NCBI RefSeq assembly: GCF_016724845.1
Contig: NZ_CP068082.1
Location: forward strand, 4,960,001-5,024,000
Reading direction: 5' to 3'
DNA: 64,000 nt
DNA from: Sphingobacterium spiritivorum
GTDB lineage: Bacteria > Bacteroidota > Bacteroidia > Sphingobacteriales > Sphingobacteriaceae
Positions 11,469-35,384 of this stretch are shown here, piece by piece. A program made the translations under genes and the position numbers. Position 1 is the first letter of the stretch, and the number at the start of each line of letters is the position of its first letter. Below the pieces are notes generated by a model. It was given only the letters and a program-made list of their open reading frames with translations, was not told the origin of the DNA and searched no databases.

Positions 11469-11993
11469 ATTGAAAATTCAAATATAATAAAACTATCTGC
11501 TGGTAAGGACAATAATAATCTTCAAATAAAGCAATCCTGAACTTTATCAACTTCTCACCAACCCTCTCTGCCCTGCGGGTATCTCTCCTTAAAAAGGAGA
11601 GAATTAATCTGATTTAACTGTTAGACTTTGTCTGGCGCAAGCATACTGCTTGTGCCTCTATAGTGTTGCCGGTGTGGACACCGACAAACGCATTTGACGC
11701 ATTTGTTGGTGTCCACACCAACAGTACACGATACAGGCAGCTTTTTTAACTATAGAAGCACACAAGTTCTAACTTTATCAACTCTCTTAACCTTATCAAC
11801 TTCTCACCAAACCTCTCTGCCCTGCGGGTATCTCTCCTTAAAAAGGAGAGAATTAATCTGATTTAACTGTTAGACTTTGTCTGGTGCAAGCATATTGCTT
11901 ATGCCTCTATAGTATTACTGGTGTGGACACCAATAAACGCATATATGCTATAGCTTTATCAACTATATCAACCCTCTAAACCTTATCAACTTC
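11469..11993. other. 525-bp intergenic region filled by two repeat copies
   Basis: Lies upstream of mgtC and downstream of mutS2, both on the minus strand. It contains two copies of a dispersed repeat 249 bases apart (see the repeat entry) and no coding region. Confidence 0.8.
11541..11950. repeat. Two direct copies of the dispersed intergenic repeat (locus A)
   Basis: Copies begin with CCTCTCTGCCCTGCGGGTAT at 11563 and 11812. Each continues with a 9-bp hairpin (TCTCTCCTT AAA AAGGAGAGA), a segment TTAACTGTTAGACTTTGTCTGG, a small CAAGCA/TGCTTG hairpin and GGTGTGGACACC. Only the first copy is completed by the inverted partner GGTGTCCACACC at 11708-11719. Shared flanks (TTATCAACTTCTCACCAA) show that the repeated unit starts before the core. 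Related copies occur at 20812 and 32479-32996. Confidence 0.9.
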
Positions 11994-20711: not shown

Positions 20712-21010
20712 AGATAAAAGCTAATTATTGGTAGGGATAGCTTTAGACGCTACTCTTGCTCTTTTTGCTGTCCTTACCAATAGCAATACATAATACTATT
20801 ATTACTTTTAACCTCTCTGCCCTGTGGGCATCTCTCCTTAAAAAGGAGAGAATTAACCGGGTTTAGCTGTTGTCATTTGTCTGTCGCAAGCCTACGCTTG
20901 TGCCACTATCATGTTGCCGGTATGTACAGCATAATATCACCATTTTTTTCGCATCCGTTGTTACTTAACATTCGATATTTGTTTACCTTTATGATAAACT
21001 AATACTACTT
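20712..21010. repeat. Intergenic region with one copy of the dispersed repeat (locus B)
   Basis: The core CCTCTCTGCCCTGTGGGCAT begins at 20812, followed by the 9-bp TCTCTCCTT/AAGGAGAGA hairpin (20831-20851), a CAAGC/GCTTG hairpin near 20886-20900 and TTGCCGGTATGTACAGC. It is closest to locus A but diverged. Upstream, an imperfect inverted repeat pairs 20727-20737 with 20771-20781. No gene is seen in these 299 bases. Confidence 0.82.
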
Positions 21011-25309: not shown

Positions 25310-25437
25310 AACAATAAAATTTTGAATAAGTAAAAAAAATTAATTAACTTCCTGATTCTGTAAAGTGATTACTATTCACTTCCGAAGCACTGATACAAAG
25401 TTGCAAAGGACGAACAGGAATATCCGGTTATTAAACA

Positions 25438-25477
25438 TTTATTACCATTTATAAACGTTTATAAGCGTTTAAAAACG
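25438..25477. promoter_or_regulatory. Phased 10-bp repeats with a 16-bp perfect palindrome, candidate operator
   Basis: Four adjacent 10-mers (TTTATTACCA, TTTATAAACG, TTTATAAGCG, TTTAAAAACG) are in helical phase. TTATAAACGTTTATAA (25449-25464) is a perfect palindrome. It lies between divergent ssb and zinc-ribbon genes, close to the latter's start. Confidence 0.45.
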
Positions 25478-25498
25478 GTTAGGAAAAGCTGCAAATCC

Positions 25499-30770: not shown

Positions 30771-32357
30771 ATGTACACTAAGAATAATAAAATAAAAACC
30801 TATACACGAGTTTTACTCTTTTCATTCAGCCTGCTGATTTTAAGTAGTTGTGCTAAAAAAGAGGTAGAAAAACAGATTTCACCGGATCAGGTGGCTCAGT
30901 TAGCCTTTTCAATAAATGGTATTGAGGAAGCCTCCGATGGTACTCCGTCAAAATATCAGGCATCATTACCCCAAACTAATACAGACAGCGAAAGCCAGCT
31001 GTTGCAGCTAGGCAATATCAGTGCCGAAGTATCTGTTACTTCAGGTCCGATCAAAACTCAGACAGAACCATCCAACAGTAAACAACGTGCTGCCAATATG
31101 ACTGACGGATACAAGTACAGAGTAGTCGTAGTGAATGCTACGACAGGTGCAGTGGTCGGATCTGTGCAGGCAACAGCCAGCGCGACAGGGGCACAGGCAG
31201 AAGCGGCCAAAATAGATGTCGTAAAGGGAGGCACTTATAAATGGTATGCTTACTCTTATAATGAAGCTGCGGATGTACCAGTACTACCAAACGAAGCTAA
31301 TCCTGTATTTACACCGTCATATGACAAGGATTTGCTTATTGCCAGCAGCGGCTCCAATACGGTAACTGTTCCAGGTACTCCGGGTCAGGGCTCAGCAGTA
31401 GACGTGCAGGTACCTATCACATTCAAGCATGCACTGGCTAAGGTAACCGTACGCTTTGATGCCAGTTCAAGGACTGATGCTATTACTGTACTGAATGCAG
31501 CTCTGAATAACGCAGCGTATTTTAATAAAGGTACTGTAACACTTAATACGACAAGTGGTGCACTCGCTTATAATATAACCGGACAACATAGTGTATCGGC
31601 CATAAATGTAACTCTTCCCAATAACATTGTGTCATCTTCGTTTTACACACTTCCAAGCGGATCTGCGATATCGAACTTTCAGGTAAATATTGCGAATCTG
31701 ACAGTAGGGCCACTTACCGCATCCAACAAAACAGTAAATTTTGCAAACACGATAGTACCTGCTGTAGGTAAAGAGATGATTGCAAATATCAATATTCTGG
31801 ATGTTACGATCGTGAGTGGTGTATACTGGGCTACCGGAAATCTCTATTATGAAAATGGTGTATATAAAATCAGAAATGAAGATACAACTCCTAGACCGAT
31901 AAATGCGGCTAGTCAGTACGCCAGAACGGATGGCTGGAACTGGATGAGCATTAAACCTTACCCAACTACATATGATCCTCGTAATCTGGTAGACCCATGT
32001 AAAAATGTACTTCCTCTCAATACATGGCGTATGCCTACCGCTGCTGAATATAACACTTTACTTCCTTTAGCTAATTCATCTACGACATATGAGTCAGCGT
32101 CAAGTTTTGGATCAAATTTCATAGGATATGACAGATTTCGTCAGAATGCCAGCAGTAAATGGGTACAATTTAACAAGGATGGCAGTACACTAACTATAGG
32201 GACTACAGGAGGATATTGGACTACAGATTATACAACAATTGGCAGTTACCCTTTTCAGGCCAGTATTTTATACATTGTTAATAACAGTAAACCAAAAGTA
32301 GATGATTATATACTTAGCGGTTCGTATTACAACATCCGGTGTGTACTTGACAGATAA
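30771..32357 (+). CDS. Fimbrillin-family/FISUMP-domain surface lipoprotein
   Basis: 528 residues. The signal peptide ends in SLLILSSCAKK, with lipobox Cys about residue 27. The middle (about 105-345) matches Mfa/fimbrillin-type two-domain beta-sandwich proteins: YKYRVVVVNATTGAVVGSVQATA, GGTYKWYAYSYNEA, FKHALAKVTVRFDAS. The C-terminal 175 residues form a FISUMP domain: YWATGNLYYENGVYKI ... CKNVLPLNTWRMPTAAEYNTLL ... GGYWTTDYTT ... YNIRCVLD. The mature N-terminus is Ser/Gln-rich. It may be a minor tip-like subunit or an adhesin on the outer membrane. It ends an operon led by the OmpA-like gene, and a strong terminator follows. Confidence 0.9.
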   Translation: MYTKNNKIKTYTRVLLFSFSLLILSSCAKKEVEKQISPDQVAQLAFSINGIEEASDGTPSKYQASLPQTNTDSESQLLQLGNISAEVSVTSGPIKTQTEPSNSKQRAANMTDGYKYRVVVVNATTGAVVGSVQATASATGAQAEAAKIDVVKGGTYKWYAYSYNEAADVPVLPNEANPVFTPSYDKDLLIASSGSNTVTVPGTPGQGSAVDVQVPITFKHALAKVTVRFDASSRTDAITVLNAALNNAAYFNKGTVTLNTTSGALAYNITGQHSVSAINVTLPNNIVSSSFYTLPSGSAISNFQVNIANLTVGPLTASNKTVNFANTIVPAVGKEMIANINILDVTIVSGVYWATGNLYYENGVYKIRNEDTTPRPINAASQYARTDGWNWMSIKPYPTTYDPRNLVDPCKNVLPLNTWRMPTAAEYNTLLPLANSSTTYESASSFGSNFIGYDRFRQNASSKWVQFNKDGSTLTIGTTGGYWTTDYTTIGSYPFQASILYIVNNSKPKVDDYILSGSYYNIRCVLDR

Positions 32358-32416: not shown

Positions 32417-32450
32417 AAGGCTGATCTTAAATAAAAATAAGATCAGCCTT
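32417..32450 (+). terminator. Rho-independent terminator of the fimbrillin operon
   Basis: 13-base perfect arms AAGGCTGATCTTA (32417-32429) and TAAGATCAGCCTT (32438-32450), followed by CTTCTTTCTTT. Confidence 0.9.
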
Positions 32451-32478: not shown

Positions 32479-32996
32479 ATCTCTATGCCCTTCAGGCATC
32501 TCTCCTTAGAAAGGAGAGAATTAATTGTATAAGCAGTTGGCGGGGACGCCAACTGACGCAGTGTTTTGTATCGCTTATACAACTTTTAGCCTTATCACTT
32601 TATCAACTTCTTGAATAACCTCTCTGCCCTGCAGGCATTTCTCCTTAGAAAGGAGAGAATTAATTGTATAAGCAGTTGGCGGGGACGCCAACTGACGCAG
32701 TGTTTTGTATCGCTTATACAACTTTAGCCTTATCACTTTATCAGCTTCTTGCTAAACCTCTATGCCCTGCAGGCATCTCTCCTTAGAAAGGAGAGAATTA
32801 ATTGTATAAGCAGTTGGCGAGGACGCCAACTGACGCAGTGTTTTGTATCGCTTATACAACTTTTAGCCTTATTACTTTATCAGCTTCTTGCTAAACCTCT
32901 CTGCCCTGCAGGCATCTCTCCTTAGAAAGGAGAGAATTTATTGTATAAGCAGTTGGCGGGGACGCCAACTGACGCAGTGTTTTGTATCGCTTATAG
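32479..32996. repeat. Tandem array of four 139-bp units (locus C of the dispersed repeat)
   Basis: The anchor TTGTATAAGCAGTTGGC starts at 32525, 32664, 32802 and 32941 (periods 139, 138, 139). Each unit begins with CCTCTCTGCCCTGCAGGCAT or a close form, then the TCTCTCCTT/AAGGAGAGA hairpin. Next comes a nested structure: outer arms TTGTATAAGC / GCTTATACAA and an inner 8-bp stem AGTTGGCG GGGA CGCCAACT. Units differ at only a few positions. The core is shared with loci A (11563, 11812) and B (20812). The last unit overlaps the stop codon of the tyrosine kinase gene. Confidence 0.95.
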
Positions 32997-35384
32997 ACCT
33001 TTTATCTTTTCTAATAATGAAGAAAATAAATTGTGTCTTTTTTCATTGCTGTATCCGTAACCATATCCGTATCCGTATCCATATCCGTACCCATATCCCC
33101 TGCGACCTTGTTTCAGTCCATTCAGAATGACAGACATATTGGAAAGTTTGCCTTCCTGACGTATTTTTTCAATTTCGGGCAATTGCCTTCTGTCCATTTT
33201 GCCTACACGGACCATAAATATAGTCAGATCCGAAATCCGGTTGACAATACTCGCATCAGCGACAAGTCCCACAGGTACTCCATCTACAATAATATAATCA
33301 TACCTGTTTCTAAGGTCAGCTATAAGCTCATCCAGTCTCTTGCCTAATAACAATTCAACGGGATTGGGCGCTACCATTCCTATGGAGATGATATCTACAT
33401 TATCTGCTATCCCACTTTTGCATATAATATCGTCAATAGCTACCTGACTATTCGATAGATAATGACTTACACCAAGTGCACTTTTTACATTGACTCTGGA
33501 ACTGATGGTCCCCTTTCTAAGATCCAGATCCAATATTAAAATCTTTTTATCCAGAAAAGATAAGGTAGCAGCCAGATTTAGGGCTGTAAAGGTTTTACCT
33601 GCTCCGATACTGAATGATGTAAACGTAATCACCTGAGGAGAATTTCCATTTCTCGACATAAAACCAATATTTGTCCTTATTATGCGGAAGGCCTCTGTAA
33701 GTACATCGCGACCAGTCTTACTGACTAATACCTTATTGCTATCTGTTTTTCTTTTTCCAGCCTGCGGTATCTCTCCAAGAAATGGGATATCCAGTACACT
33801 TTCTATATCCTGCCTTCCGCGGACTCCGGTATTGAATATCAACAGACACAAAAGAACAGCTGCAGGCAGCACAATCCCTATTCCGACACCAGTCATTACC
33901 TTCTTGAAGCGCACTGGATATACAGGTGCATCGGAGCCTGATGCAGGGTCTATAATTCGGATATTGTCATCGGTCATCGCCTTATTCAAAGCGTTCTCTT
34001 CCCGTTTATTAAGCAAGAACACGTACAGTTCTTCCTTTACTTTCTGTTGCCTTTCTACCGAAAGCATAATTCTCTGCTTCTGAGGCATCTGAATCACCTT
34101 ACCTCTTGCCTGCTGTTCTTCGCTCCTTGCCTTCTGCATTTTTACCCTAAGACCTTCAGTAGCATTTTCTACAGCCCGATCTATATTTCCCCGCATTGCA
34201 CCCAAAGCTTTGTCCAGATCCTGTACTATAGGGTTCTCTGTGCTACTGCCTTCTACTAAGCGGTTTCTGCGAAGCAATGTTGTATTGTAATCCGTAATCT
34301 GGTTTTCAATATTGGCTTCGACCAATCCTGTATTGCTGGGAATGAGTTCATTTCTTTTGGTCTTATTGTCCAGGTGACTACGCATCATATCTACCAGCCT
34401 GATATCGGTTTCCAATTTGTTTCGTTCTTCCAGGTGCTGCCTGGATTCCGATAAATACATCTCTCCGGCAACATTCACATCTACCCCCTGATTGGCTGTC
34501 TTAAGTTGCTCAATATTATTCTCCACATTTCCAAGTTCACTTTCAATAATCTGCAAACGTTCTCTGATAAATTGAGCGGTATTAATAGCGATCTGATTCT
34601 TATCTTCCAACGAGAATTCATTGTACACGGTTATCAATGTGGTGATTATATCATTCGCCCTTTTGATAGACTGATCTTCCAATGTAATTTGTAATAAAGA
34701 AGCATCTTCTTCCATTTGCTGGATCTTAAGATTACCCATAATATAGCCAACCATTGCTTCATGGGCGTATTTGGTCACCTGTATGTCTTCACCCACTGTT
34801 GATGCTGTGAATTGTTTTTCAGCTGTGACTACTATCCTGCCTACCGGAGTATTACTTTCTTTATTCAGTTCAATCTTTAACTCTTTTGCTCTGTCTCCGT
34901 TACTCCATTTTTTGAGCAATACATATTTGCCATCCAACGGGGTAAGCGTAAATGAAAAGCTTTGATCCGGTTTCTTATCCATCCAGGTTACTTTTACCGG
35001 ACTTTGTGTATAAAGCTCCTGATCCCTTAGTCCGTTACGGATTACATAACTCACATCTGCATTCAGACGATCAATTGTCCTTCTCATAAGTTCCTTTGAG
35101 TTCAACTGTAATATTTCTCCTGCCACACTTACTGAATTAAAGGCAGAATTTGTCCGTGTGATTCGGGCAGTAGACGGTGTATTCATAGGAGTCTTGATCA
35201 TTACCATTTCAGAGCTTCTATACATAAAGGTGGAACGGCTATACTGGTAATAATAGTACCCTCCAAAAAGCAAAACAGAAAGCGCAAACCATTTCCAATG
35301 TATCATTAAATACTTAAACAGGTCAATAATATTGACCGATTTATCTGCCTTTGTTATATTCTGTGTTATTTGATTATTTACCAT
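32991..35384 (-). CDS. Wzc-like polysaccharide copolymerase and BY-type tyrosine kinase
   Basis: 797 residues. The Wzz-like N-terminus has a first membrane segment (WKWFALSVLLFGGYYYYQY), a periplasmic coiled-coil region and a second membrane segment (GIGIVLPAAVLLCLLIF, near residue 510). The kinase domain follows, with Walker A SIGAGKTFTALN, Walker A' KILILDLDLRKG and Walker B YDYIIVDGVP. The C-terminal Tyr cluster is eight Gly-Tyr pairs (RRGYGYGY...YSNEKRH) encoded by a hexamer repeat. Wzc phosphorylation on C-terminal tyrosines controls polymer length and export. It is last in the EPS operon, right after the Wza-like gene. Its stop codon lies in the last repeat unit. Confidence 0.95.
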   Translation of the reverse strand: MVNNQITQNITKADKSVNIIDLFKYLMIHWKWFALSVLLFGGYYYYQYSRSTFMYRSSEMVMIKTPMNTPSTARITRTNSAFNSVSVAGEILQLNSKELMRRTIDRLNADVSYVIRNGLRDQELYTQSPVKVTWMDKKPDQSFSFTLTPLDGKYVLLKKWSNGDRAKELKIELNKESNTPVGRIVVTAEKQFTASTVGEDIQVTKYAHEAMVGYIMGNLKIQQMEEDASLLQITLEDQSIKRANDIITTLITVYNEFSLEDKNQIAINTAQFIRERLQIIESELGNVENNIEQLKTANQGVDVNVAGEMYLSESRQHLEERNKLETDIRLVDMMRSHLDNKTKRNELIPSNTGLVEANIENQITDYNTTLLRRNRLVEGSSTENPIVQDLDKALGAMRGNIDRAVENATEGLRVKMQKARSEEQQARGKVIQMPQKQRIMLSVERQQKVKEELYVFLLNKREENALNKAMTDDNIRIIDPASGSDAPVYPVRFKKVMTGVGIGIVLPAAVLLCLLIFNTGVRGRQDIESVLDIPFLGEIPQAGKRKTDSNKVLVSKTGRDVLTEAFRIIRTNIGFMSRNGNSPQVITFTSFSIGAGKTFTALNLAATLSFLDKKILILDLDLRKGTISSRVNVKSALGVSHYLSNSQVAIDDIICKSGIADNVDIISIGMVAPNPVELLLGKRLDELIADLRNRYDYIIVDGVPVGLVADASIVNRISDLTIFMVRVGKMDRRQLPEIEKIRQEGKLSNMSVILNGLKQGRRGYGYGYGYGYGYGYGYSNEKRHNLFSSLLEKIKGL
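33051..33098 (-). repeat. Hexanucleotide repeat encoding the (GY)8 kinase tail
   Basis: 48 bases made of eight near-identical hexamers (GGATAC/GGATAT-type on the coding strand) specify eight consecutive Gly-Tyr pairs. In-frame gain or loss of units would alter the number of candidate phosphotyrosines. Confidence 0.92.

Follow-up and report, generated by a model that had tools for sequence, protein, structure and literature searches.

What is a tandem array of hairpin-bearing units doing between two convergent genes, and where did it come from? The question is raised by a locus in a 64,000-nucleotide stretch of the Sphingobacterium spiritivorum genome (hereafter the window). The array occupies positions 32481..33002 (32481-33004 according to TRF; no strand assigned) and consists of four units of 138-139 bp, the last of which is truncated and stops after GCTTATA. 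TRF reported a period of 139, 3.8 copies, 95% matches and a score of 950, and its additional 277-bp row describes the same array. The units start at 32481, 32619, 32757/8 and 32896, and together with the TRF result this confirms the four units and the periods of 138-139 bp given in the original prediction. The units are not identical: several positions and some small indels set them apart.

Two inner hairpins had been predicted for every unit, and both were found in all four. The first, TCTCTCCTT/AAGGAGAGA with a 3-nt loop (the A hairpin), is located on the plus strand at 32499..32519, 32638..32658, 32776..32796 and 32915..32935. Its stem comprises 9 bp in units 1, 3 and 4, while the first base is changed in unit 2; the consensus of the family is CTCTGCCCTNCGGGCATCTCTCCTTnnnAAGGAGAGA. 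The second, AGTTGGCG-GGGA-CGCCAACT (loop AGGA in unit 3), is best read on the minus strand, where it takes the form GCGT-CAGTTGGCG-TCCC-CGCCAACTG, that is, a GCGT foot followed by a 9-bp stem and a TCCC loop. These elements, referred to as REPs for reasons given below, are at 32534..32559, 32673..32698, 32811..32836 (loop TCCT) and 32950..32975. All four are on the minus strand, and the alternating orientation of the BIME type is therefore not seen in the array. The predicted nesting held for three units only: the outer arms TTGTATAAGC ... GCTTATACAA, which enclose the REP of unit 1 at 32525..32582 and likewise those of units 2 and 3, are broken in unit 4 (GCTTATAGACC). No such arms were found in other copies of the REP family, and they are specific to the array. 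Rfam gave no match in the window at the gathering score, and an exact 38-nt unit pattern had no match in a contig collection from which the source genome of the window may be missing. A CRISPR or an integron was dismissed at first sight because the spacers, too, are repeated.

The array fills the gap between the two genes. The plus-strand ORF upstream ends at 32357 and is followed by a terminator-like hairpin (32417..32450, plus strand) ahead of the array, and the convergent gene on the minus strand (32991..35384), which resembles a polysaccharide co-polymerase/BY-kinase, has its stop codon within the last unit. The location between convergent genes after a terminator was thus correctly predicted. 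However, the name fimbrillin given to the upstream gene is unconfirmed, as Pfam assigns it no family. A separate observation concerns the end of the BY-kinase-like gene, where a hexamer repeat (33051-33098) encodes a (YG)n tail that is likely a tyrosine cluster. Changes in the number of hexamers would alter the number of tyrosines without a frameshift, and a similar hexamer repeat is present in the sister species discussed below. Elsewhere in the window, five tandem decamers of a TAAACGTTTA-like palindrome are found at 25432-25481.

With one array unit as query, the whole genome yielded 86 matching places, and nearly all of those outside the array correspond to a single module; such a count had been suggested in the original prediction. 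The strict REP pattern (5'-GCGT foot, 9-bp stem, TCCN loop) has 61 exact matches in the genome and 96 with at most one mismatch, while the pattern read backwards has 0-1. In 864 kb, 33 hairpins combine the GCGT foot with the REP loop; permuted feet or loops gave 0-6, except TGCG with 16, which is explained by its overlap with the true foot. Among 31 distinct copies, 97.1% of the stem cells are paired and 53 are double-changed. The covariation score of 0.568, compared with 0.230 in shuffles (0/500 as high), is lost when the partners are slid. The GCGT foot is near-invariant and unpaired in 55 copies. The base that follows it is C in 36 of the 55, and it pairs and covaries with position 26; the second stem position is mostly G-C and the tail mostly T[TA]T. 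The family is thus a short, dispersed, extragenic palindrome with a compensatory stem and an unpaired tetranucleotide foot, which is what defines a REP (usual length 20-40 bp). It is not of the GTAG or GT[AG]G type: two hairpins combine a GTAG foot with a TCC loop, a number like that of the permuted controls. Three further REPs are present in the window, at 11671-11691 (minus), 11699-11719 (plus, with one changed foot base) and 11920-11940 (minus). When 59 other species of the genus were searched, the strict pattern matched once, in G002 (GCGTGACTGGGTGTCCACGCC), and this single copy was taken as chance. Promoter-like matches in the REPs (TTGGCG/TACAAT, 9/12 positions) were given no weight. Bacteroidota promoters depart from a consensus of this type.

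The A hairpin (TCTCTCCTT-nnn-AAGGAGAGA) is dispersed as well, with 35 copies in the genome (pattern CTCTGCCCTNCGGGCATCTCTCC, up to 2 mismatches) and none in 59 other species of the genus. In the window it recurs near 11566 and 11815, within a mixed A/REP stretch at 11566..11940, and as a single copy at 20815..20847 (plus strand). To compare the sites of both families, ORFs were predicted over 864 kb with a crude caller. On this basis, 32 of 39 REPs are intergenic, with the other 7 inside short doubtful ORFs of up to 150 codons, and A hairpins likewise are either intergenic or within short doubtful ORFs. Among the intergenic copies, 10 of 14 A hairpins and 15 of 32 REPs are in convergent gaps, which make up 18% of intergenic bases; this excess is only an indication, since copies within one array are not independent. 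The pattern fits insertion where it is least harmful, together with possible effects on mRNA ends.

The two hairpins often occur together, which raises the possibility that the unit is one composite mobile element, in which A and REP move jointly through a RAYT transposase or some other enzyme. For 13 of 23 A loci, a REP is no more than 300 bp away, where a simple intergenic model expects about one such locus, and the genome of the sister species contains a stretch of about 81 bp, 82-88% identical, in which A and REP have the spacing of the array. However, the other 10 A loci have no strict-pattern REP nearby, many REP loci have no A hairpin, and relative orientation and distance vary between loci. 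Both families also favour the same type of gap, and this shared preference would by itself bring them together. The A hairpin is moreover absent from the flanks of the RAYT gene described below, and no mover for it was found. A composite element is, on balance, unlikely. Often near A and REP copies, hairpins of a third family were observed as well (GGCRCAAGC-n-GCTTGYGCC, at L035, L036 and L037), with about 12 copies in 864 kb. Further tandem arrays of REP and A, each with its own period, are present both in this genome and in that of the sister species. Three other, long tandem arrays of the window's genome, with periods of 201-369 (G000:C1:334568-339489, 391037-397230 and 3932666-3937012), contain neither hairpin and are probably repetitive coding sequence.

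It is the REPs that link the array to a transposase. The genome contains three Y1-type matches, of which one is a RAYT-like protein of 168 aa. Its gene (G000:C1:135845-136351) has REPs of alternating orientation on both flanks and a 122-bp tandem array upstream, and a RAYT gene flanked by its own REPs is what is expected of a REPtron. No REP-type hairpins were found in the flanks of the other two Y1 transposases (L031, IS200-like, and L033, a 75-aa frame). The RAYT protein scores above the cut-off of PF01797. Against the NCBIfam REP transposase model NF047646, it reaches an E-value of 3.5e-17 and 62.7 bits, below the curated cut-off of 80, and a PDB sequence search with it gave no match. Read by eye, its motifs are NHIH, WQ and YMHNNP, the last with M for I.

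The association between the gene and the hairpin extends beyond this genome. The nearest named relative of the RAYT is that of Pedobacter xixiisoli (Sphingobacteriaceae; 66% identity), which has the same GTTGGCG-TCCY-CGCCAAC core beside the gene. In all six other loci of the family with RAYTs of 63-68% identity, this core is found near the gene, while the feet differ. One of the six (L173) carries a RAYT fragment identical to that of P. xixiisoli in the tree, and the two may be the same species. More distant RAYTs are accompanied by other hairpins: GGTCGGTG-TCCY in G037 and GTTCGTG-TCCY at L187 and L200. At 45-49% identity, 16 of 23 loci have a TTGT loop, which in most cases is borne by a stem resembling GTTGTTGG(A/T)G. 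In the RAYT tree, the hairpin classes are split by well supported branches, but the tree also has some long branches and an uncertain base. A label test on this tree was not decisive, because the long-branch outlier L088 and the midpoint root divide the group. Two observations on individual loci may be added. RAYTs of another genus of the family (L178-L199) are accompanied by hairpins with the TTGT loop and a GCC/GCA-like foot, mostly on the GTTGTTGG(A/T)G-like stem. At L092 (G037, 1200-2870), a RAYT frame with one TGA in the alignment is followed by a 118-bp tandem array made up of REPs of two types. The distribution of the gene is patchy: at E 1e-20, it was detected in 111 of 399 genomes of the family, and among 93 species of the genus (E 1e-15) only in the window's genome and, as a 43% identical copy, in G037.

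By the features compared, the family works like the known REP/BIME systems with RAYT (TnpA_REP) genes, although it is not a GTAG REP. It shares with them the many short extragenic palindromes, the conserved unpaired tetranucleotide foot, and the single flanking HUH/Y1 gene with alternating clusters there (PMC2817692, PMC3116915, PMC8266576). It differs in that the foot is GCGT instead of GTAG/GTGG, and in that the REPs of the array have one orientation and alternate with an unrelated hairpin. Judged by the motifs, the RAYT likely belongs to TnpA_REP subclass 2.6 (Bertels group 5) of the Bacteroidetes, whose signature is NH[LIV]H, WQ and YIH[QN]NP (PMC6006769). Also in common with this subclass are the C-terminal SS, the Bacteroidota host, and flanking hairpins that lack GT[AG]G and have copies elsewhere in the genome. 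The structures flanking subclass 2.6 genes were, however, described as atypical and weak, without GT[AG]G, whereas the hairpins here are strong and uniform, with 9 bp in the stem, a TCCN loop and a GCGT foot, and the HuH-to-Y distance is 71 residues compared with a median of 82 (PMC6006769). A second comparison is with the CGTC-tagged REP superfamily, which likewise has an 8-9-bp stem, a 4-nt loop and a preference for gene 3' ends (PMC3733652); most REP copies here read G-CGTC into the stem. In contrast to that superfamily, the C of CGTC covaries here as a stem base, the unpaired CCA tail and the AT pairs at stem positions 1 and 2 are not found, and the family flanks a transposase gene, whereas CGTC repeats were stated to have no association with such genes (PMC3733652). 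Since the importance of foot and loop was demonstrated by experiment for other RAYTs (PMC8266576), the GCGT foot and the TCC loop are good candidates for recognition by this RAYT.

A comparison with the sister species (G081) throws light on the local history of the array. In a BLAST search of 93 species of the genus, the array unit matched only the window's genome and this species, where the orthologue of the BY-kinase-like gene is 84% identical. At the orthologous site the arrangement is REP-A-A-A-REP; the strand sense is unchanged, while the A array is a 144-bp one and the spacers are different. As the same site is occupied in both species in different arrangements, the site is shared and the number and order of the elements were remade locally. 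Taken together with units that are about 95% alike, this supports the recent expansion or homogenisation proposed in the original prediction. What that prediction could not reveal was the dispersal of the two hairpins and the link of one of them, the REP, to a RAYT. The comparison also bears on whether the tandem array is an assembly artefact, a false expansion or collapse. Assemblers can miscount near-identical tandem units, and the exact copy number comes from the assembly alone. Nevertheless, the units differ at several positions, the genome is a single contig with other REP/A arrays, and a related array lies at the same place in the sister species, which makes an artefact of the whole feature highly improbable.

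The sister species has 79 REPs (at most 1 mismatch) and no RAYT at E 1e-15; its sole PF01797 match is an IS200-like protein. Synteny is conserved on either side of the RAYT locus (93% and 90% identity), but about 1,385 bp with the RAYT gene and the REP arrays are missing, and a single hairpin TTGCTGGTGGGGACACCAGCAA is left at the site. Because REPs abound in this genome, it is simpler to assume that the gene was lost, perhaps when REPs recombined with each other, with a gain in the window's species as the alternative. As 79 REPs are present without the gene, a present-day dependence of REPs on RAYT would be no more than putative.

The position of the array suggests a further explanation, namely that it is a selected RNA device that stabilises or terminates the mRNAs of both convergent transcripts, chiefly that of the capsule-type cluster on the minus strand. 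One array unit folds better than shuffled sequences on both strands (z = -3.2 on the plus and -4.0 on the minus strand; 0/200 shuffles as good), the array lies directly behind the minus-strand gene, and REP and A hairpins were kept at the site in both species. A hairpins are also terminator-like on the plus strand, with 6 sites against 0.6 expected in the region. However, the T-run behind them is weak, and the plus-strand gene already has its own terminator-like hairpin ahead of the array. Furthermore, the number, order and spacers differ between the sister species, and the same elements are found behind many unrelated genes. Such a device is distinctly unlikely. The array represents a variant of a selfish repeat whose kind is already known. 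It is therefore probably not dedicated to any function at this site, and its effects on mRNA 3' ends would be at most incidental.

The array is very probably a locally amplified patch of a RAYT-linked REP family and its companion A hairpin. The genome's RAYT, a TnpA_REP-like HUH/Y1 enzyme, most likely spread the GCGT REPs by acting on folded single-stranded DNA, and one of them adjoins an A hairpin here between the two convergent genes. The composite REP/A unit was then probably amplified in head-to-tail fashion, through slippage or unequal recombination. In a transcript, the hairpins would lie at the 3' end of the capsule-type transcript of the minus strand and might stabilise it or slow read-through; effects of REPs on mRNA stability and termination were reported for other families (PMC6006769, PMC3733652). 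Several observations count against this explanation: the sister species keeps its 79 REPs without a RAYT, the A hairpin is not found at the RAYT gene and has no known mover, the NF047646 score is below the cut-off, and the REPs of the array all point one way, unlike classical BIMEs. A stronger version, in which a Bacteroidota RAYT with a GCGT guide moves the REPs and co-mobilises the A hairpin, and in which units of two hairpins thereby spread and afterwards grow into tandem arrays behind genes, is possible but doubtful. If true, it would supply a transposase for REPs similar to those of the CGTC class, for which the absence of one was reported.

The array is therefore explained without a special device. 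As an array it is ordinary in kind; its interest lies in the well-defined REP family of non-GTAG type, with a RAYT, to which it points. What appears to be new, as far as can be read from sequence, is a GCGT-tagged family with its own RAYT and a tandem partnership with a second hairpin, the mobility and function of which are putative. For a clade of Bacteroidota RAYTs whose flanking structures had been called atypical and no more, this provides a concrete REP consensus of foot, stem and loop. The sister species, with REPs and no RAYT gene, offers a natural comparison for asking if a REP population is maintained or decays once its transposase is absent, and the GCGT-footed REPs make guide recognition by RAYTs outside the GTAG type directly testable.
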